DNA of 64,000 bases from an uncultured Bacteroidales bacterium (GTDB lineage Bacteria; Bacteroidota; Bacteroidia; Bacteroidales; Paludibacteraceae). The notes under the pieces are model-generated. The model searched no databases and had not been told where the DNA came from. It saw only the letters and a list, made by a program, of their open reading frames with translations. This document shows, in pieces, positions 2,296 through 23,861 of the stretch. The stretch spans positions 124,001 through 188,000 of the forward strand of contig CACZCR010000001.1 in assembly GCA_902779705.1 (NCBI GenBank), in the 5' to 3' direction. The translations under genes and the position numbers were made by a program. Each line of letters begins with the position of its first letter. The stretch's first letter is position 1.

Positions 2296-2417
2296 TTATC
2301 TCATATGCGCATAGCGCGCAAAATGGTTGCATAATTGCATAATTATTCAAAAACAGCATTTTTTTCTTCGTTTTTGGTAAAATTTGCTAAATAAAGTGTT
2401 AAAAAGTGCAAAAAAAT

Positions 2418-2448
2418 TTGCGTATTTGCACTTTTTGTTGTATCTTTG
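2418..2448 (+). promoter_or_regulatory. Bacteroidota-type promoter of the surface-protein island
   Basis: A -33-like TTGCGTAT begins at 2418 and a -7 box TATCTTTG lies at 2441-2448, 23 nt apart start to start. This is the same spacing as in five other promoters of the window. Its position rules out translation from ATG codons upstream of about 2455 and fixes the start of the next gene at 2475. Confidence 0.75.
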
Positions 2449-2474: not shown

Positions 2475-5400
2475 ATGAAGAGTAAACATTTATATATTTA
2501 TTGTGCAAAAAAGTACCTATTGGTGCTCTTTATGCTCTTGGGTGTAAAAGGCCTGATGATTGCTCAAGATAATGTGCCTGCATTGTCAGTTCCTTACACG
2601 ATGGGATTTGAAAAAGGCGACAGTGCAAAATTAGCATTGTGGCATTTGAACGATGGCGCTAATACTGCTCGATGCAAGGAACAGTGGGAAGTAGGTACGG
2701 CTGTGAAAAGTGAAGGAAAACGCTCCCTCTATATTTCTTATGACGGAGGAGAAACCTGTGCTTTTGATACGGTGTGGAATACTTCGTACGCATATTTCGA
2801 TTTTACGATTCCTTCCGGCCAGTATGAATTGTCGTTTGACTGGCGCTGTCTGGGCGGTGACGAGTCCTTCCTTTGTGCAGGAATTGGTATTGCCAAGCAG
2901 ATGACGTCGATGGATTGTAATTATGAGCGTGCCGATTTTCCGGATTACATTCAAAATTTTGCTGAGCCGGAGTATCGTGTAATGCGTGGCAGTAGCCGCT
3001 GGCAACACGCATCGGTAAATTTTGCGTCTAATGGAGTGCGAATCTACCGACTCTATTTTGCATGGAGAAATAAGAACCGTGATGCTAAGTTGGCTAATCC
3101 TATCTCGGCATGTGTTGACAATATTCAGATTACTACGCGAAACTGTGCCAAACCGGCTAATCTGGCTGCTGAAGTAGTGGGCGACTCTGTGTTGGTGACG
3201 TGGACCGGTACCAGTGCGCAATATTGCTTGGAGTACCGCCGTTATGGCCGTGAGCGTTGGTCAGTACAGACGGGCATTCGTGATGAACAGTTTGTGATTG
3301 AGGGACTGGATGAGGGTGCATATGATATCCGTGTTCGTGGTGTATGTAACGATGTAGATACCAGTGCTTATACTTATCGTACATCATTTGGCGTTTATTA
3401 TCCGGATCGTCATTGTATTAATTATGTCGACCTGCATGGTGAAGACGTAGAGGCTACGTTTGGTAATTTCAAGGACCCGTATCTTAATACCGGAGTGTAT
3501 GATACTGCTTATACCGAAGACCCGAAATACCAACGCCATGTTATCAACTGGGATCCGGATGAGTATGATCCGCGTACCAATGGTCGTTTGAAGATAGTGC
3601 CGGACGACGAAGTAGCTTCGGTGCGTCTTGGTAACTGGAACGTCGGAGCAGAAGGCGAGTCGCTGTCATTCCACTACGTAGTAGATGGAGAAAACGCATC
3701 TATCCTGTTGCTTAAGTATGCAGTGGTGTTGGAAGATCCCGGACATGGAGATGCCGACCAGCCACACTTCAATCTTGAGATCTTGGATCAATATGGCGGA
3801 TTGATTGATTATACCTGTGGTTCGGCGGATTTCTATGCCGATTCACAACGTCCCGGCTGGAATATAGCTGGTGGTGTTACATGGAAAGATTGGACAACTA
3901 TCGGTTTGAATCTTGCAGAATATGACGGCGAACGTTTGACGGTGCGTTTAACTACGCGTGATTGTAACTGGTCCGGACACTTCGGCTATGCTTATTTCAC
4001 CATGGGCTGTGCAGCAGCCAAGATTGTGAGCACCAGTTGTGGTGATGACGCCCAGATGTCGATTGCTGCTCCTAACGGATTTGCATATGAGTGGTTCGAC
4101 AAAGATAATAATCCTGTGCCGGCAAGTATGATGTCGCCGGATGGACAGACTCTTCTTATCGCGCCGTCAGATACAACTACGTATCGCTGCCACTTGACTT
4201 ATTTGGAGGAGAAGAGTTGTGGATTTGACCTCTATTCGTCATGTCTGCCTCGCTACCCGATATCCGATTTTGATTGGAAATACGAACCCGCCAATTGCCA
4301 AAACCGTGTTCGCTTTAACAATAAGAGCCACATTATGACACGCTTCAATGACGTGGTAGAGTATCATCATGATTGGAGCTGCGATGAGTTTGAGTGGAAT
4401 TTTAGTAACGGACAGGTTGGCTCTGAGCGCAATCCTGTGGTGATTTTCCCCAACGAGGGAGGTACCTTCCCTGTGACATTGGCCGCTTCCATTGCAGAAG
4501 GCCGATGTGTGGATGATACAACTATTTATATCACCATTCCGGCTATTGGCGATAAAGAAGTGCACGTAGATACTACAATCTGCGAGGGTGGATATATCGT
4601 TTTCGGTCCGCAGTTTGCCGGAGAAGAACGTGAGTATGTGAATGTTTGGAAAACCAAGGCAGGTTGTGATTCGACGGTCTATCTTAATCTGCATCTCTCG
4701 CCACAGAGCACTATGCAATTGCCTGATACAACTATATGTGCTGAAGTGCCGTTGACGATAGATGGGCAAACCTACAAATCGAAAGAGTCCGGTAAGTTCT
4801 ACCGTTTCTATAAGAATCAATATGGATGTGACTCTACGTTGTGGTGTAACGTGACAGTGCTGGATTCTATACTCCCGGTAGTAACCGTTCGTGAGATGAC
4901 CGATGCGCCTAATTCCGGAGCAATATTCATTCAAGGCGAAGGATTTGATTACTACACCGTTAATGGCGGTACACCCCAAACAACCGATTCGATTACCGGC
5001 CTTAATGGAGGCTCGTTTGTATTGGAGTTCTTTAATGACTTTGGATGCTCTGTATATCGCGAAGCTAGTGTGAGTGTATGTATGCCGGGTTGGGTGTATC
5101 AGCGTTGGGGCGATGTGTTGTCGCTTAAGAATGCAGAGGCACTGGGCGTAGATCCTGAGACGCATCAATTTGAGAACTATCAGTGGTTCAAAAACAATGA
5201 TACCATACCAGGAGCTAATCTCTCTTATCTCTATGTAGATGAGGGCTTAGATCCTAATGCGTTCTACCATTTGGAGATGACGCGAGTGGGTAGTGGGGAG
5301 AAAGTGGTGACGTGTCCGTTCAGGCCGACTGCTGTCGCTGAGCAGGCTGTTGTTTATGTCTATCCATCCCCTGTGCGCTCCGGAGGAACATTGACGATCA

Positions 5401-5576
5401 AGGTGAATGCCGAGGCTAATGCCAAGATAGTGGATATGTTTGGTAATGTAGTGCTGACGCAAGCACTGAGCGAAGGCGAGAATAGCTTGACTATCAACGC
5501 GCAAGCGGGCGTGTACGTTGTACAAGTAGTTATTGGCGGAGAAACCCGCGTATGTAGAATCAGCGTAATAGATTAA
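2475..5576 (+). CDS. T9SS-exported multidomain surface protein (cargo A)
   Basis: A 1033-residue secreted protein. Signal peptide at ~1-31 (hydrophobic LLVLFMLLGV core, ending near IAQ). Then a jelly-roll-like region, a fibronectin type III domain (~223-305), a second large beta region containing RLGNWNVGAEGE, a PKD-like domain (~630-690), two Cys repeats of the form TTIC...GCDSTV (~698-795), a repeat region to ~865, and a type A T9SS sorting domain (~960-1033: VYPSPVRSGG, KIVDMFGNVV, GVYVVQVV). The T9SS should carry it across the outer membrane and anchor or release it. No catalytic motif is recognised. It is clearly paralogous to the cargo at 7486. The start was set at 2475 because the promoter -7 box lies between it and an earlier in-frame ATG. 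Function unknown; adhesin or matrix role is inference. Confidence 0.8.
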   Translation: MKSKHLYIYCAKKYLLVLFMLLGVKGLMIAQDNVPALSVPYTMGFEKGDSAKLALWHLNDGANTARCKEQWEVGTAVKSEGKRSLYISYDGGETCAFDTVWNTSYAYFDFTIPSGQYELSFDWRCLGGDESFLCAGIGIAKQMTSMDCNYERADFPDYIQNFAEPEYRVMRGSSRWQHASVNFASNGVRIYRLYFAWRNKNRDAKLANPISACVDNIQITTRNCAKPANLAAEVVGDSVLVTWTGTSAQYCLEYRRYGRERWSVQTGIRDEQFVIEGLDEGAYDIRVRGVCNDVDTSAYTYRTSFGVYYPDRHCINYVDLHGEDVEATFGNFKDPYLNTGVYDTAYTEDPKYQRHVINWDPDEYDPRTNGRLKIVPDDEVASVRLGNWNVGAEGESLSFHYVVDGENASILLLKYAVVLEDPGHGDADQPHFNLEILDQYGGLIDYTCGSADFYADSQRPGWNIAGGVTWKDWTTIGLNLAEYDGERLTVRLTTRDCNWSGHFGYAYFTMGCAAAKIVSTSCGDDAQMSIAAPNGFAYEWFDKDNNPVPASMMSPDGQTLLIAPSDTTTYRCHLTYLEEKSCGFDLYSSCLPRYPISDFDWKYEPANCQNRVRFNNKSHIMTRFNDVVEYHHDWSCDEFEWNFSNGQVGSERNPVVIFPNEGGTFPVTLAASIAEGRCVDDTTIYITIPAIGDKEVHVDTTICEGGYIVFGPQFAGEEREYVNVWKTKAGCDSTVYLNLHLSPQSTMQLPDTTICAEVPLTIDGQTYKSKESGKFYRFYKNQYGCDSTLWCNVTVLDSILPVVTVREMTDAPNSGAIFIQGEGFDYYTVNGGTPQTTDSITGLNGGSFVLEFFNDFGCSVYREASVSVCMPGWVYQRWGDVLSLKNAEALGVDPETHQFENYQWFKNNDTIPGANLSYLYVDEGLDPNAFYHLEMTRVGSGEKVVTCPFRPTAVAEQAVVYVYPSPVRSGGTLTIKVNAEANAKIVDMFGNVVLTQALSEGENSLTINAQAGVYVVQVVIGGETRVCRISVID

Positions 5577-5589
5577 GGAGGGCAGCACA

Positions 5590-7479
5590 ATGAAGAAGAT
5601 TAGCTATTACATCATGTTGATTGCGATTCTGGTGAGCCAAGTAATGGTGGCTGCACCTAAGAAGAAATCGTATAAGAGTAAGAAACCGGCCAAGACGACT
5701 AAGACGACCAAGTCCTATAAGTCATCGTCTAAATCGTCTAAATCGTCCAAGTCCTCTAAGTCCGTATCATCTCGATCAGGTAAGAATGCCAAGAATTGGG
5801 AGGGCGCAAACCGCAATATCCACCATGTTGCCTTTTGGGGAGGTGCCGGGTACAGCGGCTTACTCAATAAGTATGATAACAATAAGTTCGTTGGAGGAGG
5901 CGGAGGCATGATAGGTGTAGGTTACGAGTATAAGTATGATCACTTTATCCTTAACTTGGGACCGGAGTTCCGTATTCTGTCTTCGATGGACAAAATCATT
6001 TTCCCGTCGTCGTACGATGTCGCTATGATGGCTGACGGATATAACCAAACCAAGCATTACACATTCTCTGATCCGTTAAAAGAGAATCATCTGGCCGGGC
6101 AAGTGATGTTGCCGGTAATGGTCGGTGGATCGTGGGATAAATGGTATTTCTTGGCCGGTGTTAAGGTGGGATATTCGTTGTTAGGATCGTATAATCAACA
6201 GGGTAAATTGACAACCTCAATCACGGATGACGCAGCTTTTGATCCTAATTGGACGGATATGCCTAATCACGGAGCCATAACCGATGCTCCCTACAAGACC
6301 TCCGGTAAGATGAACTATGGTTTGGACATAGCAGCCACAGCCGAGGTGGGACTGAATATCAATGGTTTCCTGAGCAAGGAATGGAACGATGCTAATGCTG
6401 CTCGTAATCATCCGTGGCATATGCGTGTGGCAGCATTTGTGGATTATGGTGTGAAGAACTTGGCTCAGCCTATAGAAGGCCCGATAGCCATGGCTGATGA
6501 GAATGAGATTACTACTCGTTCGCTGCAAAACTCTGACTGGTCTAATGGTAGACTGAATAGCCTGTTGGTAGGCGTGAAATTTACGGCTTTGTTGCAAATG
6601 AACAAACCGCAACCACCAAAACCACAGAAACCAATGATGACAGTTCAACTGACAGACGAACAAACCAATACAGCGATTGCTGAGGCTACAGTGGATATAA
6701 CTCCATTGGTGGGCAAGAACCCGCGTACATTGCACCGCTCTACCAACAAGCGTGGTGTAGTGGCGTCCAGAATGTCAGCGGGAACGTACCATTTGACATT
6801 GTCGCATCCTGATTATCTGTCTATGGAGCGTGATTATACGCATCAGGAATGGGATGACACATTGTCTCTTGCTTTGACACCGCGTCCGGAGTATCAGTTC
6901 TATGTGCGCGATGCAAAATCTGATTCGCTCTTGGCGTCGATAGTCACATTTGTCAATGCAAGTAACGATGCTACTATAGCAAGCATTCAAACGGATAGCA
7001 TAACAGGTTATGGTAGCCAACGTCTGCCGTTGAATACCACTGTGCGTATACATATCGAATCAGAAGGTCACTTGGCACTCACCGCTCCTGTAACAGATAT
7101 CAGCGGCCAGCAGACGTGGCGTCTGGAACCGATTGTCAAAGAGCGTGCAATCATTCTGCACAACCTCTTCTTTGCAACCAACAAGACAACGATCCTACCT
7201 GCATCGGAGCCTTCGTTGCAAGATTTGTATACGTTATTGGTTGAGAATCCGGATATCCGTATACGCATAATAGGTCACACGGATAATGTGGGTTCGGATC
7301 AGGCTAACCAACGTTTGTCTGAAGGACGTGCAGAGAGTGTACGTAAGGATTTGATTAAGCGCGGTATTAAGGCTGACCGTATCGAGGCAGAAGGTAAGGG
7401 CGAGTCCCAACCGATTGACACCAACGATACCGAGGAAGGACGCCAGAATAACCGCCGCGTAGAATTTATGATATTGTAA
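5590..7479 (+). CDS. Outer-membrane barrel with Lys/Ser tract and C-terminal OmpA domain
   Basis: A 629-residue envelope protein. Seen: signal peptide (~1-22); an extremely basic low-complexity tract (~23-65) built of KSSKSSK-type units; a beta-barrel-like region (~77-330) rich in alternating aromatic strands; two immunoglobulin-like or carboxypeptidase-regulatory-like repeats (~350-435, ~437-503); and an OmpA-type peptidoglycan-binding domain (~515-629) with GHTDNVGSDQANQRLSEGRA and NNRRVEF, which keeps the Asp and Arg that bind diaminopimelate. Its barrel resembles the 309-residue barrel encoded at 10524. It begins 13 bases after cargo A, so the two are probably cotranscribed. It likely links the outer membrane to the wall next to the exported cargo; that link is inference. 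Confidence 0.8.
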   Translation: MKKISYYIMLIAILVSQVMVAAPKKKSYKSKKPAKTTKTTKSYKSSSKSSKSSKSSKSVSSRSGKNAKNWEGANRNIHHVAFWGGAGYSGLLNKYDNNKFVGGGGGMIGVGYEYKYDHFILNLGPEFRILSSMDKIIFPSSYDVAMMADGYNQTKHYTFSDPLKENHLAGQVMLPVMVGGSWDKWYFLAGVKVGYSLLGSYNQQGKLTTSITDDAAFDPNWTDMPNHGAITDAPYKTSGKMNYGLDIAATAEVGLNINGFLSKEWNDANAARNHPWHMRVAAFVDYGVKNLAQPIEGPIAMADENEITTRSLQNSDWSNGRLNSLLVGVKFTALLQMNKPQPPKPQKPMMTVQLTDEQTNTAIAEATVDITPLVGKNPRTLHRSTNKRGVVASRMSAGTYHLTLSHPDYLSMERDYTHQEWDDTLSLALTPRPEYQFYVRDAKSDSLLASIVTFVNASNDATIASIQTDSITGYGSQRLPLNTTVRIHIESEGHLALTAPVTDISGQQTWRLEPIVKERAIILHNLFFATNKTTILPASEPSLQDLYTLLVENPDIRIRIIGHTDNVGSDQANQRLSEGRAESVRKDLIKRGIKADRIEAEGKGESQPIDTNDTEEGRQNNRRVEFMIL

Positions 7480-7485
7480 TAAACA

Positions 7486-10400
7486 TTGAAGAAGAGTTTA
7501 TACATATTACTGCTGTGCCTGCTATCGATTCCGATGGCTGCACAAGTCGTGTACCAATGTGATTTTGAGGACGAGACTGAGCGTGCTCAGTGGTTGCTCA
7601 ACGATGGTCCTCGGGCTGATCGATGCCCCAACTGGTGGTACATGGGCGCTGCTGCTAATACTACCAGAGACGGTGAGTATGGCTTGTTCATATCCAATGA
7701 CGGCGAACACGCGGATTATGATGGTACTACCAATATGTACGCTGTGGCGGTTCGCGAACTGACTCTGCCGGCAGGTGACTATACCATCTTCTTTGACTGG
7801 CTTGCCAAAGGCAAAGCAGCAAGTACCGAAGGTATATGGGTTTGTTGGGTTCCGGAAGATGTGGATACCTATACCGCAGCTGCTCTGCGTCCGGGTTGGG
7901 TAGATATGTACCGTTTGGATACTGTGTTCAATAGTACTTCTATTTGGAAACAAGGCAAACTGTCTCTCACTTCGGATGGCAAGAAACATAAATTAGCTTT
8001 TGTTTGGACTAACGCTAAGAGTAGTAGAACTGTTCCGCCGAGTGGATGTGTAGATAATATCAGTATTATTCCTAAGGAAGACGAGTGTCCTGCCCCTACT
8101 CATTTCACGCGTACGATGAATGGTACCACTATGTTGGTATCATGGGAAGGCGATGCCGATTGGTATGATGCACGCGTGTATGACTACGAGAGTGGTAAGT
8201 GGCAGTTCTTTGATCGTGTGACACTCAAGCGTATCAGCATAGATGGTCTGTCTGAAGGAATGACACAGATCTATGTTCGCTCTCATTGCGGTGAGACTGG
8301 AGTGAGCCAGTATGAGCTTTATACGCCGTTCTATTTTCTTCCCGGAAGATGTATCAACTATCTGGCATTGGATGACCCTACTCAATGTATAACTTATATA
8401 GGTACTACAGGAAATCCGCAGAGTGACCGACAATTGGTGGATTCCGGTTATAATTCCAAAGATAGTCGTCATACACTACATTATGTTCCCGGAGAGACAG
8501 ATCCGCGTACAGATAATATGTTGAAGACCAAGCCGGATGATGCTTTGGCTTCTGTCCGCTTGGGTAACTGGAATTCCGGAGCTGAGGCTGAATGTATAGA
8601 GTATATCTATACTGTGCCGGAAGGAGAAGGATCGATTCTTAAACTGCGTTATGCTATCGTGCTTAATCAACCTGTTCCTTCACATGACGAGGCTACCCAG
8701 TCCAGTTTCTCCCTGTCTATTGAGTATCGTGAGAAAGGCAAGGTACAGTGGCGCAAGATGCCAGGCGGCTGTGGTGAGGCTAAGTTCCATGTCGGTTATG
8801 GAGATCAGACGGGATGGCACGCAGTCGGAAACGGAGAAGTGATGTGGAAGGAATGGACAGAGGTGGCTGTCAATCTGCGTGATTATGCTGGTATGACTAT
8901 CAAAGTGAAATTGACCACGGCAGACTGTACAGCCGGTGGACACTATAGTTATGCGTATTATACCTTGGATTGTGAGTCATCCGAATTGTCGGGTCTAAAC
9001 TGCGGTGCGGACAATCCGACGACCTCGTTTACTGCACCTACCGGTTTTGACTATGCATGGTATTTGGCTTCTGATCCTTCTACTATCTTGTCGCATGACC
9101 AGACATTCACGATTGCGCCGATGGATACGCTGTTGTATAATGTGGATGTAATCTCCAAAACCAATGATAAATGCTATTATACCCTGGATGCTTGTGGTAT
9201 TCCACGTTATCCGGTGGCTAAAGCTGACTATAAATGGAATGGCGGTGAACATTGTGAAAATGCGGTGACGTTCTATAATCTCTCTTATATATATTATAAG
9301 AATATAGAGCGTTGGAATCAAGATCAACGTACGGATACAGTCTATACCAATAATGAAAAGGTACAGGAGACAGTATGGGACTTTGGAGATGGAGAGGTTG
9401 TTGTGTCAAATGCTGATTCTATTGTGCATGTCTATCCGGCCGGAGGTGGAACGTATCATCCAATCATTACAGCGTCTATCTCCAATGGTGCATGTACGGC
9501 ATCTAAGGTCGTGGCGGATTTGAACTTGCCGGATGTATCCACAGATGAACAAGAGATACACTTGTCCAAAGGATCGATGTATCATGGTAAGGTGTATTGG
9601 GAACCGTTTGAGTTTGACGACATAAGCATTGAGGATGGTTGTGAGATACTGACACACGTATATATACACGAGACACAGTTTACTATAGATACCACTTTCT
9701 GTGAAGGAGGCTACTTCCAGTTGGGTGATCAGCGCATCACGTCTTCCGGTACCTACAAAGCTAATTTGAAGAGTGTACAATGGCCTCAAGTGGATAGTAT
9801 AGTGACTCTACACTTGGATGTAGAGCCGACGTTGATGATAGCATTGGCAGATACGATTACAATATGCGGAGACCAGACATCCGTATTGTTCCCTATCCAA
9901 GTGGTACAAGGAGTAATGGATAGTGTACAGGTGGTATTCTCCAATGAAGCTGTAGCAGCAGGATTTGATACGACGTATCAATTTGGCAATAATGAAGATA
10001 TCCGGTTTGATCTGCCTGTATCCATAGAGCCGGGCTACTATAGAGCAAACTTAAAGTTAGGAACTCCTCGTTGTCCGACACCGGATGTACCGGTAGTGGT
10101 GCAGGTTAGTTACCCATCGACGATTATTGCACAGAAAGATGGTATTATTGCTCTGCTGAACGATAGTTTGAATGGTGGATATCAATTCAGTGCATATAAA
10201 TGGTACCGTAATGGCGAACTGATATCCGGTGCTAACGAATCGTACTTGATTGTAGGCGACGGTGATCTGGGAGCGCAATATACGGCAGTGGTAACGCGTC
10301 TTTCGGATGGCGTGACGGTAAGTATTTGTCCGATATTCTATGACGCAGCCCAAGGCTTGGATGAGATAGTAGCGGATGATGGACCATGGATGCTGTTGGA

Positions 10401-10524
10401 TATAATGGGACGTGTCATCGTACCTTTGACGGATTCCAAGTCGATGCCGGTAGTACAATCGCCTGGCATGTATATTTTGGTTCGTCCGGAGAGTCATAAA
10501 ACAACTAAAATAGTTATCCGATAA
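7486..10524 (+). CDS. T9SS-exported multidomain surface protein (cargo B), paralogue of cargo A
   Basis: A 1012-residue secreted protein beginning at a TTG codon at 7486; the next in-frame ATG would remove the signal peptide (KKSLYILLLCLLSIPMAAQ), so TTG is preferred. It repeats the architecture of cargo A: N-terminal beta domain (WLLNDGPRADRC compared with WHLNDGANTARC), fibronectin III (~202-282), a domain with SVRLGNWNSGAEAE (cargo A: SVRLGNWNVGAEGE), a PKD-like domain (WDFGDGEVV, ~627-665), one CEGGY-type repeat (~735-783), and a shorter C-terminus (DIMGRVIVPL, GMYILV, TKIVIR) that looks like a reduced T9SS type A sorting domain. It starts 7 bases after the OmpA gene and ends overlapping the next ATG. 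Molecular function unknown. Confidence 0.75.
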   Translation: MKKSLYILLLCLLSIPMAAQVVYQCDFEDETERAQWLLNDGPRADRCPNWWYMGAAANTTRDGEYGLFISNDGEHADYDGTTNMYAVAVRELTLPAGDYTIFFDWLAKGKAASTEGIWVCWVPEDVDTYTAAALRPGWVDMYRLDTVFNSTSIWKQGKLSLTSDGKKHKLAFVWTNAKSSRTVPPSGCVDNISIIPKEDECPAPTHFTRTMNGTTMLVSWEGDADWYDARVYDYESGKWQFFDRVTLKRISIDGLSEGMTQIYVRSHCGETGVSQYELYTPFYFLPGRCINYLALDDPTQCITYIGTTGNPQSDRQLVDSGYNSKDSRHTLHYVPGETDPRTDNMLKTKPDDALASVRLGNWNSGAEAECIEYIYTVPEGEGSILKLRYAIVLNQPVPSHDEATQSSFSLSIEYREKGKVQWRKMPGGCGEAKFHVGYGDQTGWHAVGNGEVMWKEWTEVAVNLRDYAGMTIKVKLTTADCTAGGHYSYAYYTLDCESSELSGLNCGADNPTTSFTAPTGFDYAWYLASDPSTILSHDQTFTIAPMDTLLYNVDVISKTNDKCYYTLDACGIPRYPVAKADYKWNGGEHCENAVTFYNLSYIYYKNIERWNQDQRTDTVYTNNEKVQETVWDFGDGEVVVSNADSIVHVYPAGGGTYHPIITASISNGACTASKVVADLNLPDVSTDEQEIHLSKGSMYHGKVYWEPFEFDDISIEDGCEILTHVYIHETQFTIDTTFCEGGYFQLGDQRITSSGTYKANLKSVQWPQVDSIVTLHLDVEPTLMIALADTITICGDQTSVLFPIQVVQGVMDSVQVVFSNEAVAAGFDTTYQFGNNEDIRFDLPVSIEPGYYRANLKLGTPRCPTPDVPVVVQVSYPSTIIAQKDGIIALLNDSLNGGYQFSAYKWYRNGELISGANESYLIVGDGDLGAQYTAVVTRLSDGVTVSICPIFYDAAQGLDEIVADDGPWMLLDIMGRVIVPLTDSKSMPVVQSPGMYILVRPESHKTTKIVIR

Positions 10525-11453
10525 TGAAACTGCGTATATACATATTATCCGTACTGTTGCTGCCGGCTATGATGCTAATGGCAGCGCCGCGTGCACCGCA
10601 GTCGTTATCGCATTGGTTGGGATTGAGTGTGACCGGAGTGGAGAGTAATGTGTTGTTGGGCTCTTCGTCTGCTTCATTGGTTAAACCCGGCGGCGGAGCA
10701 CAGGTACATTTGCTGTATGAGATGCACAAGGGTGGAGTATACTTCAATCTTGGTCTTGGCGCAGATTATATGGTGACAAATAGTGCATTGGAGAGTTATT
10801 CTGACGAATTTGACCGCGTAGATTTTATGGGTGAAGCGCTGACGTATCGCTATGTATATTCGGACTACCAAGAGCAACAACGCCAAGTACGTTTGGTTGT
10901 GCCGATTCAAATAGGCGGATACTTTGGCGATTGGGTATATGCCGGTATAGGAGCGGCGTTCCGTACTGCGCCGTTTATCAATAGCTTTACCACCAACACC
11001 CGTATGTTGGCAGAGGGAGAGTATGATCGCTTTATTCAACCGATTCGCAATACAGAAGCATATGGTTATTGGCCGGAAGCTGAGTATAGTGGAGCAGGAA
11101 AAGTGCTGTCGGCGACTTATGAGGTGGCAGTAGAGGCTGAAGTGGGTGTCAGAATACCTCTTCCGGCAAAGAAAGTCCAGATGCGCGTAGGTGCTTACTT
11201 GGGATATGATATGCCGATAGCTAAATACAACGCCAGAGCAACGACGCCTTTGGTAGATTACTCAGCGATAGATGCTAATCCATATACACAAACGTGGACG
11301 AATACACAAACAAATATACGGTTTAACAGTATGCTGGATACTCCTATTGCTACCCGCGATGCGCAGCGTATACGGGTGGGCGTAAGAGCGACAGTACTGC
11401 TGGACGTTACCCATACGGAAAAGCCGTGTATGTGTTTACGCTATATATATTAA
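10524..11453 (+). CDS. Outer-membrane beta-barrel protein, partner of cargo B
   Basis: A 309-residue protein with a signal peptide (~1-20, ending MLMAA) and a predicted barrel of amphipathic strands. The barrel matches in layout the barrel part of the OmpA-type protein at 5590: LGLGADYMVTNS with LNLGPEFRILSS, VPIQIGGYFGDWVYAGIGAA with LPVMVGGSWDKWYFLAGVKV, and a central AEVGV/AEVGL stretch. It lacks the OmpA domain and basic tract. Its ATG overlaps the stop of cargo B by one base, indicating translational coupling. It does not show the QxPQFSQY start typical of PorP/SprF. It could be a docking barrel for cargo B; that is inference. Confidence 0.7.
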   Translation: MKLRIYILSVLLLPAMMLMAAPRAPQSLSHWLGLSVTGVESNVLLGSSSASLVKPGGGAQVHLLYEMHKGGVYFNLGLGADYMVTNSALESYSDEFDRVDFMGEALTYRYVYSDYQEQQRQVRLVVPIQIGGYFGDWVYAGIGAAFRTAPFINSFTTNTRMLAEGEYDRFIQPIRNTEAYGYWPEAEYSGAGKVLSATYEVAVEAEVGVRIPLPAKKVQMRVGAYLGYDMPIAKYNARATTPLVDYSAIDANPYTQTWTNTQTNIRFNSMLDTPIATRDAQRIRVGVRATVLLDVTHTEKPCMCLRYIY

Positions 11454-11491
11454 CCCACAATTATTAATTATTCACCAAAAATTTTTAAGGT

Positions 11492-14400
11492 ATGAAAAAA
11501 ACTTTACTTACGACTTTGTTGCTGATCTTAGTATCGGTAATGTCGTTTGCTGGCGTAGTGAATGAGAGTATCTACGTACAGAAAGTTGATTTCGAGAGTG
11601 GTGAATTGCCAGAAGGATGGACTCAAGAGTTCGTTGACACAACGATCTATGGAGAGCATCCTTGGGTGATTGAAGAAGCCGCAGAGGCAGACTACCCGAA
11701 AGCCGTTAAGGAAAACGGGAAGTATCTGTTGGCGTTGCGCAACAATTCGACCGCAACCATCGGCTACACTACTCGACTAATCTCGCCGGTGATGGACTTG
11801 AGCCAAAACAAGGTATTCCAGCCCATCTTGGTGTTCAGCCACGCGCAACAACAGCGTACGGGTGATTTTGACCAATTGAAGGTCTACTATCGCTCGAAAG
11901 CGACTGACAAATGGGTGCGTTTGGATGGACGTAATGGCAATCCTGAGTTTAATCAGAAGATTGCTAAGTGGCAACGTGATACTATCCAACTCACGAGCCA
12001 AAGCGACACCTATCAAGTGATGTTTGAGGTGACAGATCGCTTCGGTCGCGGTGTGGTATTGGATAATATCGAAGTTCGTCCTATGCCTACATGCGAAGAT
12101 CCGTACGGATATGCAGTATCGGGTTTGACGACAACTGCTGCAACAGTTAGCTGGAATGCTAGCTTTGACACCGACTCGTTTGAGGTGGCTTTGAGTACCA
12201 CTCCGCTTGAGTCGATGGACGCTGTCAATCCGGGAGAACTGGTGTACTACGGCTTCTTGGCTGACGATGAGTTCGCATTCTCTACGGAGGCTTTGGGCTT
12301 GACACTGAAACGAAACCAACTGTATTATCTTTATGTACGTTCGCATTGCCAAGGCTCTGTGAGCGATTGGACGGGTACTTCGTTCCGTACGAAGAACTTT
12401 GCAGATCTTCCGTTAGTGCAGAACTTTACTGCAGGCGAAGATTTTGAGTACAAGAGTGGTGCTTTGAACCATATCTCGTATTGGTCATTCGGAACAAGTA
12501 TTAAGAGAGATGACGGTGTAACGATGGAATATATGCCATTTGTTAACACCAACACGCAGCCGGGAACGGCTTCTGCAGGTAATTATGCATTTGACCAGAG
12601 TTTCTGTCTCGCCTTTACAGGTGGACGCAGTCTGAGTACGAGCATTCCTGCAGGTCAGTTTGTTTATGCGGCTACACCGGAATTGAATACTCCGGATTTG
12701 TCTAAGGTGTTTGTAACTTTCTGGGGAACAGCATATCAGTCGGTAGGCGACAATTATGCAAGCGGTATCATCGTGGGTGTGATGACTGACCCAGAAGATT
12801 TTACAACCTTTGTTCCGGTAGATACTTGCTATATTTACGGTTCTCAGGAGTTCAATAAGTTCGGCGTTTCCTTGTCCAACTATAAGGGCGAAGGAAAGTA
12901 TGTCGCTTTTGCTTCGGATTTCAAAGATAAGGACAACCGCTTCTATATCGATAACATTGCTATCAAGGCATCCGTTGCTCCTATCTGGCCCAGTGATATC
13001 AAGATTTCTAAGGTTTCGGCTAAGGGCTTTGACCTGACGCTCGATGCACATGGTCTGCCGTACAATGTATTGGTTACCAAACGTGTGACGAACTCTAAAG
13101 GTCAGATTGTTGAAGATCCTGCAGAAATGGAGGAGAGCGACAAACTGTTGTCGGTATTGAATCAGACAGCAAGCACTATCCATGTCGATATGCCCGAAGG
13201 AACATCCGGCCTGATGCTGGAGGTATTCACGCAGTCTATTGGAGAAGGTGATTTGGCTGGTGACTGGTCGCTGCCTGCAATGACGCGTCTGCCGATGTTC
13301 TTGGCGGATAGCATGATGCCTTATCGCATTGACTGGGAGGATACACAGAACACCTGGAGCGAGAAAACGCTCTATCCGTTCAGCAACAATGGTGTCAACT
13401 ACAACTATCCAAACAGCATCATCACGGCTACCCTTTCTGCTCCGAACGGTTACGGACAGAATAAGTCTTATACGGCACTTTCTTCGGGTACCACTTCGCA
13501 AGAGGGTAAATCGACAGGCCACTACATATACATGCGTAAGGAAGGTAACCGCGTGACGGCCGGTGACCCGGAGATATACGGTTACACGCATAAATATGGT
13601 AACTATATCGCATTGCCGGAAGTAGCCGACCTGAGCAAAGTACTGCTCAAGTTCTACATGAAGCGCTACAGCAGTTCTGTTGAGAACTCTTCACGCGTGG
13701 CTGTTGGTATTCTGACTGATCCGTATGACATCTCCACCTTTGACACGATTGCTACTTTCGATGCTACTTCGGCTACGGAGTATCAACCGTTCTCTTGCGC
13801 CTTTGGCGACTATAAGGGCGAGGGTAAGATTATCGCCATTCAAGCGATCGAGTCCGCTAACCCCTATGAGAGTGGTTCAACCAGCAGTAGCGGTTACGGT
13901 TGGACAAACGTTTATTATTCCAACCAGTATCTTGATTGGATCAATCTCTACTCTTTAGGCGAGTGTAATCCGATTGCCAACCCGAAAGTAGAAGCTGCGC
14001 ATGACTCGGCTATTATTTCTTGGGGTGCGAACGATATGACCAAATGGGAAGTTCGTATCAAAGACAGCAAGAATGTAATGCTGATTGATTCGCTGGTAGA
14101 GCAGACCTCGTTTATTGCACGTGGTCTCAAACCACATAGCGATTATACCTACATGATTTCGCCGGTATGTGACTCGCTGTATGAAATCTCTGACTGGTTG
14201 AGTTTCACGACAGAGTGTCTGCCCGAAAATCCGCTGCCGTTCGTAGAGGACTTCGAAAATTCGGAATACAAGACCGGCAGTTCCACTGGTTTTATCCCCT
14301 ATTGCTGGAGTTCGCCGAAATATGTATATAATAGCGGTGCTAGCGGAGAGTCTAACTCGTATTATCCGTACATCTATCGTTATTCCACCACTGGTGGACA

Positions 14401-17400
14401 TAACAGCGGATCTGCGATGTGTCTTTACACAAGTGCGTCTTCAACGGTTCAAAACGAGATTTGGACGGCACTGCCTATCCTGGCGGACAGCGTTAAGAAG
14501 CTGCAGGTTGAATTCTACGTTAAGGGTTACAGCGTATCGCAGAACTCAATGCTGCAAGTCGGTGTGATGACCGATCCGAACGATATCACCACCTTTGAGG
14601 TAGTAGACAGCGTGAATGTAGTAGGTACTACATGGAAGGGCAATATTGTTAAGTTTGGTAAGTATGCAGGCGAAGGCAAGTATATCGCCTTTAAGCGCAA
14701 CTACGAGCGTGATGGTAAAGTGAATTACTATCTTGATGATATCACTGTTGATTATATTAAGGATTGTGAGAAACTGTTTACACTTTCTGCAGCAGAGCCT
14801 AAGACGAACGGCGTTACCTTGTCTTGGAACAAGACCAATGCAGATGCTTATGAGGTGATGGTTCTTAACAAGAATATCAACGCAAATACAGAGGATACAA
14901 CCGGTTTGGTAATGTCTGTTGAGACAACAACAGCAACTCCGTTTGTATATGTGAACGACAATTTGGCACTCAATACCAATTATTATGCGTATGTGCGCAC
15001 GATATGTGGTTCGGAGAAGACCAGTTGGTCGGATGTGGTAGCATTTAAGACCACTTGTGAGCCGCAGACTCCGGATGCATTGGGTACTATTATGTTCCAT
15101 GAGCAGAATGTACTCGGTTGCTGGTCTACAGGTGTGATGAGCGGAACAACTAGTGCTCCTTATACCGCTGGTTCACCTACCGGTAAATTCCACTATTATT
15201 TGTATATCTTCAATACAGCAGCCTCGGACGGAGCATATGCAATTATGCCTCCGCTGAATGTAGAAGATATTAACAAATATCAGATTTCGTTCGATGTTTG
15301 CTCTAACTCTACTATTGCTACCAACAAGAAGCAGATCACTGTAGGTATCATTAGTAACCCAGCAGACCTCTCTACATTTGCTCCGCTTACTACGGTTAAC
15401 TTCCCGTACGCAGTTGACTCGTTAGGTTACATGCGTGTAACGATTCCGTTTGACAAATATGATGGAGACTATGTAACGGGTGCTAAGGGTACACAGGTAA
15501 TGTTCCTCTCTGAGAGTGGTGATAGTACCAACTATGCATATATTGACAACGTCAATATTGAGTTGATACCGAGCTGTGCTGCTCCTTCTGAAGTTATTGC
15601 AGACTCCGTAGGTACCTACGGCGCTAAAATAGCTTGGAATAAGACAGGTGAGAAATACGAAGTAGCTATTACCGAGACGAAGGTTGCTCCGTCAGAGGCA
15701 AATGCTAAGGTAATCTGGCAAAAAGAGACGACTGACACCTTCGCTATCGCTACAGACACTCTCCAGATGCTTACTACATACTACATGTATGTACGTACGA
15801 TTTGCGGTGTTGGTGATACTAGCGCTTGGTCAAATGCTCGTTCGTTTACCACTATCTGCCCGGATGCATATAAGTTGCCATTCACGGAAGACTTTGAGAA
15901 GAGTGCTAATACGGGCGCTTCGTACAAACCGGAATGCTGGACATATTACTATGTCAATGGAGCAACTGTTACGGAAGGTAAGACCACATCTTATCCGTCC
16001 ATTTCTGGTGCTTCCTATTCACACAGCAGTAAGTATTGTATGTACATGTATAGTAGCAATGCAACAACCAAAATCTATTCGTTTGCTGCTACTCCTTACA
16101 TCGATACAGAACTGAACAAAGCGATGGTTTCCTTCTGGTATAAAGCAAATGGGTATGCCGCAGCAACTCCGTCACGTAAACTCGTTGTAGGTGTTGCGGA
16201 AGAGGTTTCGACACTCGATACCTTGATGGCTACGCTTTCTGTACTGGATACGATTGTTCAAACCAATACTTCTTCTACGATTCCGTACGAGAAATACTCA
16301 CGTATCGTAAGTGAGAAGTATAATGGTAAGGGTCATTACATCGTGCTCATTAGTATTGAGGGTAATGGAACTACTTCTACCGGTGGTATGTATGTAGATG
16401 ATATCGAGATTTCACTCGTACCGTCTTGCTTTATGCCGGATAACCTGAGCGCGGCTAAGATGTACGATACTTCTGCGCAACTGACTTGGGAGCAACTCCA
16501 AGGCGATAACACCGCTTGGGATGTAGCTTATGGTCCTGAAGGCACTGCTGTCGCAGAAATGACCGTTGTTGCCGCAGATACGACAGAGTTTGTGGTTAAT
16601 GGTTTGCAACCAAGCACAACCTACGACTTCTATGTTCGCGCTAACTGTGGCGACGAGTATAGCGATTGGCGTGGTCCGGTTACGGCTACTACACTCTATC
16701 AAATCCCGCTGGCTGATGCTAAGTGGACCTTCGAGAATGGTGAGATTCAGGTGGCTCAAGCTCCTACCGGTACTTACAAGAAACCGCAGACTTGGTTCGT
16801 GAACAATGTTTGGACAGGTCTTGCTACCGTGGGTAACGCTCCGTATATTACCTCTAACACGAAGAATGCTACTACCGGTTTGATTACTTCTAACAAGGCA
16901 TACTCCGGTGATAGTTTGATGTACTTCTATTCGAATACAACTGCTCATCCGGGTTATGGTCCGTACGCAGCTCTGCCGGTTATTGCAGATGCCGACTACG
17001 ACAGCCTGCAAGTTCGTTTCATGGCGCGTGTTACGTATAGTGGTACGCCGTCTAAGGTAGATGGTCGTGACAGTATGATGTACACTACGTATGCTTATGC
17101 CGGTGGTTCGTACAAACGTACAATCTATGTCGGTGTGGCTACCGATCCGTATGATATGTCCACTTTCGAGGAAATGACACAATACATCTTCCCGACGCTG
17201 GGTACCAGCACAACGAATGTGGATATCAATAAGGTTCCGGATCCGGAAGGCACCAACTACTGGCGTGAGGTGGTAGTTCCGCTCTATGGCGCAAAGGGTA
17301 AATATATTATCCTTGCCGGTCCTGGCGACTACAACACTGTCTTTGTGGACAACGTCGTTGTTGAGAAAGTGGATCCGAATGCTTGCGCTAACGTAACCAA

Positions 17401-20400
17401 GTTGGCAATGGACGAGGATGCGCTCAAGTACAATGCAGCTGAGTTCAACTGGCTGTCGCCGAAGAAGAACTTCAAGGTAACCATTACCGAGAAAGATTCT
17501 ACGGCAGCTTATGCAACAGCTATCATTGATACAGCATACTTCAAGATTGATTCGCTCCAAGCAAAAACAACCTACACCATCAGTGTACAAGCTGTTTGTG
17601 GCGAGGATTTCAGTAAGGCTGTTACACTCACCTTTACAACACCGTGTAAACCGGCAGCTGAAGACGAGGCTAAATGGAACTTCGCGGACAACCTCTATCA
17701 GTGGGGAACCTCTGCTACATACGTCATTCCTGAGTGTTGGGATGAAGGTCTGGGCTTCGGTTCGGGCGTTTCCTATACCCCGTATTCAATTGTGAACACG
17801 ACTACCTATGCGTATGGTCGCGAAGACGTTGTGACGGATCGCGCACTGCGTTTCTACACCACAGCAAGTTACTATAATGCATATGCTGTGCTGCCGGAAC
17901 TGGGCTTCGAACTCGATTCGATGACGCTCCACTTCTGGGGTCGTGGCGCTTACTTCTATTCGAAAAACTATTCAACGGCTGCTAACAAGGGTAAGCTCTA
18001 TTCAGCTAACGGAAACTATGCACGTGCACTGGTAATCGGTGTCATGACTGATCCGGCTGATTTCGAGACCTTCACTCCGATTGATACCATTACGTACGAT
18101 CAGAAGTGGACATCCAATGCCGGCGTATTCGCATATAATGACCCGCTGGGTAATGACTACTGGCAAGAATACGCTCTGCCGCTGGCTAAATACCAAGGTA
18201 AGGGACGTATTGCGATTGTAGCTCCGAACCCGAAAGATTTCTCGACGGCAAGTTCGCCTACCAGCTACTTCTTCGTAGATGATCTTGAGATTATCAAGGG
18301 TGACTTCTGTACCCCGATTACGGGTCAGCGCGCAGAGGATGTACAATCTACATCTGCTGTAATCCGCTGGAGCGAGTTGTCAGAGAACCCGTATGTACAG
18401 TTGCAAATAGCAACAGACGAAGAGTTTGAGAACTTGGTTTATGACCAACAACTCGATAGTCTGAACAGTATTAAGATTGAGAACTTGAAACCTGCTGCGG
18501 AATACTTCTTCCGTCTCAAGCACCTCTGCGATACCGTAGCCGGTGACGAGTCGGAATGGGGTTCCGTAGGTTCGTTCAATACGGACTATGTAGTTCGCTT
18601 CAATGAGAACTTCAACGCTGTGAAGACTAACCTGCCGAAGAACTGGTGGCGTAGTAATACTGCTACTGCAGAGGAGGTATTCAATGGTACACAGTTGGCT
18701 GAAGCAAGTGAAACTGCTTCGTACGATTGGCGCACAAGCATTGGTAGTGATCAGTATGTCTATGCTAATACGACCACTAACAATGCAAGCTCTTCGACCA
18801 GCTCTGCTAAGCACTGGCTCATCTCTCCGGAGATTGATCTTGCTCCGAATGCAGAGGACAGCCTCTTGTTGAGCTTCGATGTAGCAGTTCGTGCACAAAG
18901 CAGCGATATACCGAATCCGAACACCGACCTGCTCGAGCAGTTCATGGTAGTAGTTTCTACCGATGGCGGCAAGACCTGGAAGGCTGAGGATGCAACTGTA
19001 TGGAGTACAGATATTGAGGGTGATTATAACTTCAACAACTTCTATGCAAACGGTAAGTTTGTAACCAAGTATGTTGATCTCACCAAGTATGCAGGTCAAA
19101 CGATTAACCTGGCATTCTATATCTACTCATATGCTGACAAGCAGGTTGGAGGTTCGAAGAACTTAGTCTGCCTCGACAATATCCAGCTCAATACCTATAG
19201 AATGATTCAGAACAGTGATAAGATCTGTCGTTGGGAGGATTATGTAGGTAACGGCTTTGAGATTGATGCAGATCAGTTGCCAGCAGGTACTAACTTCTTC
19301 GAGCGCTTCACACGTGCTAAAGCAGTTGCAGACAAGGATGTGATCGAGCGTCTGACGATTGTGGTAGAAGATGAGACTGTTAACGAGTTGGAGAATATTA
19401 CTCTCTGTGAGGGTACGACCTATAGCTCGGACGGCTTCAACTTTATAGCTACTCAGACAGGTGTTTACAAACAGAAACTGCAATCTGTAGCAGGTTGTGA
19501 CTCAACTGTAGTACTGAATGTGACGGTTAACCCGATTCAACGTACCGATGTCGAGGAGACTATCTGCCAAGGTGCTTACTATGAGTTCAATGGTGAGAAG
19601 TATTACACTACTCAGAATGTTACGGCTACCTTCACTTCCATCCTTGGTTGTGACTCTGTTGTAACACTCCACTTGACTGTTAATGAGATTATCCATGGCG
19701 AGCCGGAAGAGGTTTACCTCTGCCCGGGTCAAACCTACGCATTCACAGAGAAGTATCCTGCTTTGGCTGAGGCCGGAGAGTATGTAGATACGATCATCAA
19801 TGCTAAGGGTTGCGACTCCATCGCTACGGTAACGATCTATAAGGCTGAAGAGGAGTACACCTTCTTCCGCGCAGCTATTTGCCAAGGAGAGGTTTACGAC
19901 AAGGGTATATTCGGTGGCTTGCGTACAGCAGGTGAGTACACGACACCTCACGGTGAAGAGGGTCTGAAGACCATCCATGGTTGTGACTCTATCGTAACGC
20001 TCCACTTGTTGGTAGCTCAACCGACCGAGGATCAGACATTCGTAATGTACGATTCGATTGGAATTGACCAATTGCCGTACGTATTGAATGACGAAGAGAT
20101 CTTGCCAGAGGGCACGACAGTAGGTGTTTACACACGTTCTGTAATGCTCAACTGCGGTGAGGCAACTTTGGTTATCAATGTAGGTTGGCCGCAAGGTATC
20201 AACAATACGTTTGTAACGTCGTTGGCTCTGACGCCGAATCCGGCAACAGTAGGTCAACCGGTACGCGTACTGGGTAACTTCAACAACGCTTCTGTAGAGG
20301 TAGTATCTGCAACAGGTGCTCTCGTATACAAAGCACAGAATTTGATTGATCCGATTACTATTCCGGGTATGCCGGCCGCAGGTGTATACTTCGTCCGTCT

Positions 20401-20446
20401 GATGGATGGTAATAAGGTTTACCAAGCTAAGCTGGTGGTTAAATAA
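11492..20446 (+). CDS. Giant repeat surface adhesin with T9SS sorting domain
   Basis: A 2984-residue secreted protein. Signal peptide ~1-20. An opening MAM/cleaved-adhesin-like domain (~28-210) is followed by a fibronectin III domain, then about seven repeats of a beta-sandwich plus fibronectin III unit. The repeats are marked by GVMTDPxDxxTF-type motifs near residues 428, 738, 1023, 1284, 1566 (degenerate), 1880 and 2183. An eighth cleaved-adhesin-like domain lies at ~2400-2600 (VVVSTDGGKTWKAE). Four C...GCDS repeats (~2645-2860) precede a type A T9SS sorting domain (~2905-2984: LTPNPATVGQPV, GVYFVRLMDG, YQAKLVVK). No protease or hydrolase motif is seen. The gap after the upstream barrel is 38 bases without a clear promoter, so it may belong to the same transcript. 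The strong terminator follows it. Confidence 0.8.
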   Translation: MKKTLLTTLLLILVSVMSFAGVVNESIYVQKVDFESGELPEGWTQEFVDTTIYGEHPWVIEEAAEADYPKAVKENGKYLLALRNNSTATIGYTTRLISPVMDLSQNKVFQPILVFSHAQQQRTGDFDQLKVYYRSKATDKWVRLDGRNGNPEFNQKIAKWQRDTIQLTSQSDTYQVMFEVTDRFGRGVVLDNIEVRPMPTCEDPYGYAVSGLTTTAATVSWNASFDTDSFEVALSTTPLESMDAVNPGELVYYGFLADDEFAFSTEALGLTLKRNQLYYLYVRSHCQGSVSDWTGTSFRTKNFADLPLVQNFTAGEDFEYKSGALNHISYWSFGTSIKRDDGVTMEYMPFVNTNTQPGTASAGNYAFDQSFCLAFTGGRSLSTSIPAGQFVYAATPELNTPDLSKVFVTFWGTAYQSVGDNYASGIIVGVMTDPEDFTTFVPVDTCYIYGSQEFNKFGVSLSNYKGEGKYVAFASDFKDKDNRFYIDNIAIKASVAPIWPSDIKISKVSAKGFDLTLDAHGLPYNVLVTKRVTNSKGQIVEDPAEMEESDKLLSVLNQTASTIHVDMPEGTSGLMLEVFTQSIGEGDLAGDWSLPAMTRLPMFLADSMMPYRIDWEDTQNTWSEKTLYPFSNNGVNYNYPNSIITATLSAPNGYGQNKSYTALSSGTTSQEGKSTGHYIYMRKEGNRVTAGDPEIYGYTHKYGNYIALPEVADLSKVLLKFYMKRYSSSVENSSRVAVGILTDPYDISTFDTIATFDATSATEYQPFSCAFGDYKGEGKIIAIQAIESANPYESGSTSSSGYGWTNVYYSNQYLDWINLYSLGECNPIANPKVEAAHDSAIISWGANDMTKWEVRIKDSKNVMLIDSLVEQTSFIARGLKPHSDYTYMISPVCDSLYEISDWLSFTTECLPENPLPFVEDFENSEYKTGSSTGFIPYCWSSPKYVYNSGASGESNSYYPYIYRYSTTGGHNSGSAMCLYTSASSTVQNEIWTALPILADSVKKLQVEFYVKGYSVSQNSMLQVGVMTDPNDITTFEVVDSVNVVGTTWKGNIVKFGKYAGEGKYIAFKRNYERDGKVNYYLDDITVDYIKDCEKLFTLSAAEPKTNGVTLSWNKTNADAYEVMVLNKNINANTEDTTGLVMSVETTTATPFVYVNDNLALNTNYYAYVRTICGSEKTSWSDVVAFKTTCEPQTPDALGTIMFHEQNVLGCWSTGVMSGTTSAPYTAGSPTGKFHYYLYIFNTAASDGAYAIMPPLNVEDINKYQISFDVCSNSTIATNKKQITVGIISNPADLSTFAPLTTVNFPYAVDSLGYMRVTIPFDKYDGDYVTGAKGTQVMFLSESGDSTNYAYIDNVNIELIPSCAAPSEVIADSVGTYGAKIAWNKTGEKYEVAITETKVAPSEANAKVIWQKETTDTFAIATDTLQMLTTYYMYVRTICGVGDTSAWSNARSFTTICPDAYKLPFTEDFEKSANTGASYKPECWTYYYVNGATVTEGKTTSYPSISGASYSHSSKYCMYMYSSNATTKIYSFAATPYIDTELNKAMVSFWYKANGYAAATPSRKLVVGVAEEVSTLDTLMATLSVLDTIVQTNTSSTIPYEKYSRIVSEKYNGKGHYIVLISIEGNGTTSTGGMYVDDIEISLVPSCFMPDNLSAAKMYDTSAQLTWEQLQGDNTAWDVAYGPEGTAVAEMTVVAADTTEFVVNGLQPSTTYDFYVRANCGDEYSDWRGPVTATTLYQIPLADAKWTFENGEIQVAQAPTGTYKKPQTWFVNNVWTGLATVGNAPYITSNTKNATTGLITSNKAYSGDSLMYFYSNTTAHPGYGPYAALPVIADADYDSLQVRFMARVTYSGTPSKVDGRDSMMYTTYAYAGGSYKRTIYVGVATDPYDMSTFEEMTQYIFPTLGTSTTNVDINKVPDPEGTNYWREVVVPLYGAKGKYIILAGPGDYNTVFVDNVVVEKVDPNACANVTKLAMDEDALKYNAAEFNWLSPKKNFKVTITEKDSTAAYATAIIDTAYFKIDSLQAKTTYTISVQAVCGEDFSKAVTLTFTTPCKPAAEDEAKWNFADNLYQWGTSATYVIPECWDEGLGFGSGVSYTPYSIVNTTTYAYGREDVVTDRALRFYTTASYYNAYAVLPELGFELDSMTLHFWGRGAYFYSKNYSTAANKGKLYSANGNYARALVIGVMTDPADFETFTPIDTITYDQKWTSNAGVFAYNDPLGNDYWQEYALPLAKYQGKGRIAIVAPNPKDFSTASSPTSYFFVDDLEIIKGDFCTPITGQRAEDVQSTSAVIRWSELSENPYVQLQIATDEEFENLVYDQQLDSLNSIKIENLKPAAEYFFRLKHLCDTVAGDESEWGSVGSFNTDYVVRFNENFNAVKTNLPKNWWRSNTATAEEVFNGTQLAEASETASYDWRTSIGSDQYVYANTTTNNASSSTSSAKHWLISPEIDLAPNAEDSLLLSFDVAVRAQSSDIPNPNTDLLEQFMVVVSTDGGKTWKAEDATVWSTDIEGDYNFNNFYANGKFVTKYVDLTKYAGQTINLAFYIYSYADKQVGGSKNLVCLDNIQLNTYRMIQNSDKICRWEDYVGNGFEIDADQLPAGTNFFERFTRAKAVADKDVIERLTIVVEDETVNELENITLCEGTTYSSDGFNFIATQTGVYKQKLQSVAGCDSTVVLNVTVNPIQRTDVEETICQGAYYEFNGEKYYTTQNVTATFTSILGCDSVVTLHLTVNEIIHGEPEEVYLCPGQTYAFTEKYPALAEAGEYVDTIINAKGCDSIATVTIYKAEEEYTFFRAAICQGEVYDKGIFGGLRTAGEYTTPHGEEGLKTIHGCDSIVTLHLLVAQPTEDQTFVMYDSIGIDQLPYVLNDEEILPEGTTVGVYTRSVMLNCGEATLVINVGWPQGINNTFVTSLALTPNPATVGQPVRVLGNFNNASVEVVSATGALVYKAQNLIDPITIPGMPAAGVYFVRLMDGNKVYQAKLVVK

Positions 20447-20471
20447 CCATCAGCATTAGCTGAATAGCAAG

Positions 20472-20500
20472 AACGCTCGGGCCAATGCCCGGGCGTTTTT
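20472..20500 (+). terminator. Intrinsic terminator after the giant adhesin
   Basis: A GC-rich stem (ACGCTCGGGC, loop CAAT, GCCCGGGCGT) is followed by a T run. It sits 25 bases after the adhesin stop and closes the surface-protein island. Confidence 0.85.
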
Positions 20501-20580
20501 GTGTTATGGTGTATCCGATAAGAGTCTGACAATGGTCTAGGATTAGTCCGATGGGAGTCTGACGAGAGGGGGTTGACAAT

Positions 20581-20652
20581 CCGATAAGAGTCCGATAAGA
20601 GTCCGATAAGAGTCCGATAAGAGTCCGATGAGAGTCCGATGAGAGTCCGATA
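20581..20652 (+). repeat. Tandem array of an 11-bp unit (ccgataagagt)
   Basis: About six and a half head-to-tail copies of ccgataagagt, the last full ones as ccgatgagagt, start at 20581, 20592, 20603, 20614, 20625, 20636 and 20647. Degenerate related pieces (gtctgac, gtccgat) occur upstream from 20524. The array lies between two converging terminators. No open frame of note crosses it. The unit is shorter than a CRISPR repeat and has no spacers. Confidence 0.9.
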
Positions 20653-22891: not shown

Positions 22892-22983
22892 GTGAAAATT
22901 CTTGAAATTGAAAAGAAAAAAAGTTGAAGAATGACGTTTTTTGGCAAAAAAATCACTTTTTTGCAATATTTCCCCTTATGCGC

Positions 22984-23014
22984 TTGCGTATGTGCGAAAA
23001 AAGTTGTACCTTTG
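22984..23014 (+). promoter_or_regulatory. Promoter of the exopolysaccharide export genes
   Basis: TTGCGTATG from 22984 and -7 box TACCTTTG at 23007-23014, again 23 nt start to start, 21 bases before the ATG at 23036. It excludes a longer in-frame start at 22931. Confidence 0.75.
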
Positions 23015-23035
23015 CCTGCTAATTATAATCAAGAC

Positions 23036-23842: not shown

Positions 23843-23861
23843 ATCCGGAAATTAAGTTTGT

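Follow-up and report, generated by a model that had tools for sequence, protein, structure and literature searches.

Candidate cargo-holding barrels with OmpA or twin-cysteine ends in a type IX secretion surface locus of Paludibacteraceae

Introduction

In the literature searched, cargos of the type IX secretion system (T9SS) are carried either by the general PorV or, if they end in a type B C-terminal domain (CTD), by PorP/SprF shuttles. Each of these shuttles is dedicated to its type B substrate; some are dynamic, and others appear to be static and come with a wall-binding protein that resembles PorE (PMC12618676). The PorE-PorP-PG1035 complex is static and PorE-linked (PMC9143113). In Flavobacterium johnsoniae, the Cys-X-Cys motif in the C-terminal tail of SprF, and also that of PorG, forms a disulfide bond with GldK Cys343, which ties these barrels to the moving track (PMC12635249). 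Here, we study a five-gene locus from an uncultured bacterium of the little-studied Paludibacteraceae (Bacteroidales), which encodes two T9SS cargos (C1, C2), each followed by an outer-membrane barrel (B1, B2), as well as a giant adhesin. The analysed stretch, referred to as the window, comprises 64,000 nucleotides (positions 124,001 to 188,000 of contig CACZCR010000001.1, assembly GCA_902779705.1) of a 1.82 Mb genome that is 98% complete. We rate the chances as about even that B1 and B2 are cargo-holding barrels, with B1 tied to the wall and B2 hooked to PorK, within a family unlike PorP/SprF.

Results

Cargos and barrels of the locus

The five genes are arranged head-to-tail on the forward strand. 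C1 (2475-5576, 1033 aa) is followed after 13 bp by B1 (5590-7479, 629 aa) and, after another 6 bp, by C2 (7486-10524, 1012 aa). B2 (10524-11453, 309 aa) has one base in common with C2 (gap of -1), and the adhesin (11492-20446, 2984 aa) starts 38 bp 3' of B2. An earlier reading of the sequence alone (the original prediction) had described this layout, and its coordinates, gaps and strong final terminator were all found; only the start codon of C2 had to be corrected, i.e., it is TTG and not ATG. C1 and C2 are paralogous, as had been claimed (31% identity across ~800 aa, E=1e-100). The claim of type A sorting domains stands for C1 (residues 962-1029; 34.1 bits for TIGR04183, cut-off 23) and for the adhesin (34.5 bits), whose repeats are choice-of-anchor J and fn3 domains. 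For C2, in contrast, no CTD model (TIGR04183 included) matched in a hidden Markov model (HMM) search of the whole protein, and its end is type-A-like by eye only. Directly before the CTD, barrel-adjacent cargos have in common an immunoglobulin-like (Ig-like) domain that we label A4 (5049-5393 in C1, 10066-10410 in C2), for which a Pfam search gave no consistent match.

The two barrel proteins differ in their domain content, as the original prediction had it. B1 is composed of a barrel (residues ~76-336), carboxypeptidase-regulatory-like domains (~349-515) and an OmpA peptidoglycan-binding domain (527-622; 7168-7455 in the window), the latter being a predicted wall anchor based on Pfam (PF00691, E=1e-23) and structure matches, which include the C-terminal domain of PorE. 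The PorE model NF052230 itself matches B1 at residues 518-609 only (85 bits vs. a cut-off of 600). B2 has no Pfam or NCBIfam match. Nevertheless, the barrels are related: the direct similarity of the B1 barrel to B2 is weak (22% identity, 202 aa, E=4e-6), but the family alignment, built by motif and by HMM envelope, and the tree agree with it.

B2 is predicted to form an 8-stranded outer-membrane barrel. Its single-chain structure model (mean pLDDT 88) matches 8-stranded barrels of the OmpA/NspA type with Z-scores of 15-16 (VIA-align; NspA Z 16.2) and a designed transmembrane barrel with Z 15.9 (115/120 residues, 1.7 A). Foldseek matches show low TM-scores, probably caused by the long loops; based on secondary structure, the fourth outer loop has ~49 residues.

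Barrel genes follow cargo genes

We evaluated the pairing within 11 congener genomes, by distance for 76 barrels and at gene level for 70 non-core barrels. Cargo-barrel adjacency is a strong rule: 46/76 barrels are located at most 2 kb from a cargo A4 domain (expectation: 1.6), and 45 of these 46 lie 3' of the domain in the same orientation. That is, the adjacency beyond chance on which the original prediction had staked the pairing is found. Among the 70 non-core barrels, 42 directly follow an A4 cargo with a median gap of 14 bp. The others precede an A4 cargo (7), adjoin another protein of at least 600 aa (12) or another barrel (5), or have no such neighbour (4).

Furthermore, when loci within a genome are compared with each other, those with more similar A4 domains also tend to have more similar barrels (Mantel r=0.67, p=0.0025; Spearman 0.36, p=0.009; with the two closest pairs removed, p=0.013). 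This co-divergence is clearer for the A4 domain than for the 400 residues before it. Regarding the CTD, 21 of 26 barrel-adjacent cargo C-termini are type A and none is type B, which agrees with the suggestion of a barrel dedicated to type A cargos; the docking that this suggestion included is something we infer.

An explanation other than binding is that neighbourhood reflects shared function. The barrels would then be co-transcribed outer-membrane proteins with a role of their own (porin, lectin, surface layer), and the cargos ordinary type A substrates of PorV/PorU that are attached to lipopolysaccharide. The prevalence of type A among the adjacent cargos is compatible with this, as are the presence of PorU and PorV in the genome and the cargo pairs without adjacent barrel. 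It accounts poorly, however, for the tight one-sided adjacency over many unrelated cargos from several genera, for a within-genome co-divergence that is strongest for the pre-CTD domain, and for barrel ends that are near-exclusively OmpA or twin cysteine. We give such separate roles a minor but real chance.

Two side observations concern the range of the pairing. In the order's other families, homologues of the cargo core have a type B CTD at their end, and of three that were examined, two are followed by a genuine PorP/SprF gene (6646-7689 of locus L087, 2623-3576 of L088); one cargo core seems to be paired with two different barrel families. In another genus, solo barrels with a CNC tail follow A4 cargos of 861-990 aa on long contigs (L330-L332); a cultivable organism for tests might be reached through this genus.

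Barrel ends are mostly either OmpA or twin cysteine

The C-terminal tails were compared in three samples, i.e., the 11 genomes, 77 relatives' loci and other genera of the family, where the first two overlap in species and, unlike the third, are not independent. The 77 loci were gathered from named genomes with a narrow cargo alignment, since the broad one was too weakly conserved. A CxC or CxxC motif is found in the tails of 32/39, 41/54 and 17/17 solo barrels, respectively, compared to 0/31, 0/42 and 0/6 for OmpA-fused barrels (p=2e-13 for the 11 genomes). The background among other open reading frames of the same loci is 15/543. In B2, the motif is C302-M303-C304 (codons at 11427-11435). Both cysteines are found unchanged in 20/20 orthologues, within a tail whose neighbouring residues are mostly conserved to 20-35%. 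Judged from the strand pattern, the B2 tail should be periplasmic. The original prediction had called one module tied to the wall and the other free. Its first half fits the OmpA domain of B1 and its lack in B2; 'free' is probably wrong given a twin-cysteine tail as in SprF and PorG (PMC12635249).

A plausible bonding partner is encoded in the same genome, which contains PorK, PorL, PorM, PorN, PorP, PorU, PorV, PorG and a GldJ homologue (PorG and GldJ were identified by their best models, yet below the cut-offs). The PorK cysteine within KGCFFANFKP (KGC cysteine) is invariant in all 10 proteins examined, with two loci left out of the alignment. Its distance to the other conserved cysteine is 56 residues, which resembles GldK 285-343 (58), such that it likely corresponds to GldK Cys343. 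PorG of the genus has an invariant CxxC tail, and the genome's single PorP has no C-tail cysteine.

The cysteine pair could also serve something else, e.g., metal binding, a disulfide between two B2 copies or a bond with some lipoprotein that is not PorK. Its spacing varies (CxC and CxxC) and the target is not visible in sequence, both of which leave room for such uses. Then again, motif, place and topology are the same as in two proteins shown to bond GldK, and its alternation with a wall anchor is in line with an anchoring role. We hold these other uses to be unlikely.

Solo barrels of one clade, which lack the cysteines, have tails like SYIYDY. This tail (SYIYDY...RGGNQ; L197, L200, L292-L327) is conserved in place of the cysteines and may be another kind of anchor.

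Relation to PorP/SprF and PorG

In accordance with the original prediction, neither B1 nor B2 matches TIGR03519 (PorP/SprF). The only hit in the window's genome is the core PorP (G000:C3:325977), and nearly all congeners have one copy as well, compared to up to 13 per genome in several other families. An hhalign comparison of the barrel profile with PorP, the latter built from 3 sequences, yielded a probability of 11% restricted to the signal peptide region. We rejected membership in PorP/SprF based on the missing model match, the missing profile similarity and the neighbours, which are not type B. A PDB sequence search revealed no PorP/SprF relative, where absence from structure lists is no evidence against a common fold.

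B1/B2 family barrels occur in nearly every congener with up to 11 copies, and in 25/33 sampled genera of Paludibacteraceae; they are rare in other families. One solo barrel is part of the core genome. It ends in CVIC and is located between metG and dacA/folP/gldJ-like genes (9395-10399 of locus L177; C3:383394-384398 of the window's genome). The other congeners examined show the same neighbours and no adjacent cargo. This core barrel is possibly a core partner of GldJ.

The solo barrels might also be PorG-like, i.e., disulfide-linked to PorK and passing on motor force to eject particular cargos instead of holding them. Eight strands with a cysteine pair in the C-tail are what is reported for PorG (PMC12635249), and the core copy lies near gldJ in the genomes examined. 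But the barrel profile shows no similarity to PorG (hhalign probability 11%), B2 matches neither PorG model (NF052316, PF19573), PorG is present as a separate gene, and the OmpA-fused sister barrels are left unexplained. An ejecting role thus appears quite improbable. Paralogy to PorG was rejected for lack of profile similarity, although fold and tail agree.

Gene order and trees

Gene orders were surveyed in 36 congeners, with S denoting solo and F denoting OmpA-fused barrels. The order C1-B1-C2-B2 with the adhesin nearby was found in three genomes, adhesin-S-F-C1-C2 in nine (some cut by contig ends) and adhesin-C2-S-F in two; three genomes have cargo pairs without adjacent barrel. The exact order C1-F-C2-S-adhesin is present in 14/77 loci from named genomes. 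In the barrel tree, B1 falls among fused barrels from other loci, and B2 among solo barrels, i.e., on distant branches, with at least 2 to 3 switches between the two kinds. In the cargo tree, on the other hand, C1 and C2 form neighbouring clades, and cargos outside these clades already adjoin both kinds of barrel (three loci).

The original prediction had cargo and barrel duplicate together as a unit; one operon with paralogous cargos and related barrels does suggest this, but it is hardly credible in view of the disagreeing trees, the outlying cargos with both barrels and the reshuffled gene order. What stands of the proposed pair is thus the adjacency, not a joint duplication as its origin.

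Operon signals and genomic context

Based on sequence signals, C1-B1-C2-B2-adhesin is an apparent operon that reaches from a promoter-like site at 2417 to a hairpin terminator at 20468. The former is a match of the Bacteroides-type pattern TTTG-N20-TAnnTTTG (2417-2448, forward strand), which matches 7 times within the window compared to 1.3 expected by chance. A terminator pattern scan of the window gave no match at 20468; the hairpin (20468-20501, forward strand, followed by T-rich sequence) was picked up by RNA folding (-25.6 kcal/mol, z=-5.6). Just 3' of it, at 20570-20650, are tandem repeats with units of ~11-12 bases (GAGTCCGATAA). Further downstream (22931-26162), genes for a polysaccharide export lipoprotein and chain-length/tyrosine-kinase-like proteins were recognised by eye, i.e., capsule or exopolysaccharide genes.

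The named relatives of the cargo belong to uncultured Paludibacteraceae and other Bacteroidales, chiefly from rumen and gut metagenomes. The closest relatives of C1 (80-83% identical) are from RUG14447, RUG11936, RUG12873 and one SRR12081302 bin.

Discussion

We propose that the operon encodes a T9SS-exported and probably adhesive surface module. Therein, C1 and C2 would each be held at the surface by the 8-stranded barrel that is encoded right after them, with the cargo docking on its barrel via the pre-CTD A4 domain. The periplasmic end of the barrel would set the fate of the cargo: the OmpA end of B1 would fix C1 to peptidoglycan, while the Cys-X-Cys tail of B2 would form a disulfide with the conserved PorK/GldK cysteine and in this way attach C2 to the ring or track of the T9SS. 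A third exported protein, the giant adhesin, would be co-expressed with them.

Several observations weigh against this proposal. Reportedly, PorV handles type A CTDs and PorU normally cleaves them off; since both are present, export does not need a dedicated barrel. The signal of co-divergence is modest, and part of it is seen in the 400 aa before A4. At several loci, no barrel adjoins C1/C2. The core solo barrel of the metG/dacA/gldJ region has the cysteine pair but no adjacent cargo, i.e., the tail does not concern cargos alone. Finally, 13 solo barrels of one clade, from loci with the S-F-C1-C2 layout, have no cysteines; they make up all the exceptions among the 77 loci. This looks like a loss, since four loci of the same layout outside the clade retain them.

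More tentatively, and with more doubt than confidence, we consider that the barrels could represent a third class of T9SS carriers in Paludibacteraceae. That is, dedicated 8-stranded barrels that belong to neither PorV/PorQ nor PorP/SprF might extract cargos with type A CTDs and keep them, and a swappable barrel end (OmpA or twin cysteine) might render these cargos wall-fixed or driven by the PorK/GldK track. If so, barrels for type A cargos would be family-wide, with either a wall anchor or a motor-tapping cysteine pair, and anchoring would be modular and evolvable. Non-model gut Bacteroidales may then keep track-driven or ring-linked surface proteins. This is suggested because a single core PorP/SprF is found in nearly all congeners, and it has no C-tail cysteines in the window's genome, which nonetheless encodes PorK and a GldJ homologue. 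The modular barrel ends suggest an undescribed way of choosing the anchoring place of an exported protein. A search of open-licence literature found no account of type A cargos that have a dedicated barrel other than PorV, which is weak evidence.

Among the known systems, RemA is likewise a surface adhesin (of gliding cells) with a type A CTD, but it is handled by PorV (PMC12618676), and a dedicated barrel is unreported in the literature searched. For PorZ/PorQ, a type A CTD is retained on a partner barrel (PMC10202324); there, however, PorQ is part of the PorV/PorQ barrel family, and the two form one pair within the core attachment complex. PorG (NF052316, DUF6089) shares the 8-stranded outer-membrane barrel and the cysteine pair in the C-tail, but shows no detectable sequence homology and is a single core gene here, in contrast to the multi-copy and mostly cargo-linked solo barrels.

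The static type B complexes anchored by PorE (PG1035-PorP-PorE, Fjoh_3952-3951-3950) also combine a barrel with an OmpA domain for wall anchoring; in B1, the OmpA domain is fused to the barrel, and the match to the PorE model is limited to this domain. The layout also resembles that of SprB/SprF and PG1035/PorP, i.e., of type B cargos with a PorP/SprF shuttle, where the gene of a large exported surface protein also lies beside that of a dedicated barrel, the barrel likely reads the C-terminal region of the cargo, and the C-tail CxC of SprF bonds GldK. Here, in contrast, the barrel is from another family (no TIGR03519 match, hhalign 11%), has 8 predicted strands and adjoins cargos with a type A CTD. 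The arrangement would work like the type B/SprF/PorE systems, yet it falls outside PorP/SprF by sequence, profile and CTD type.

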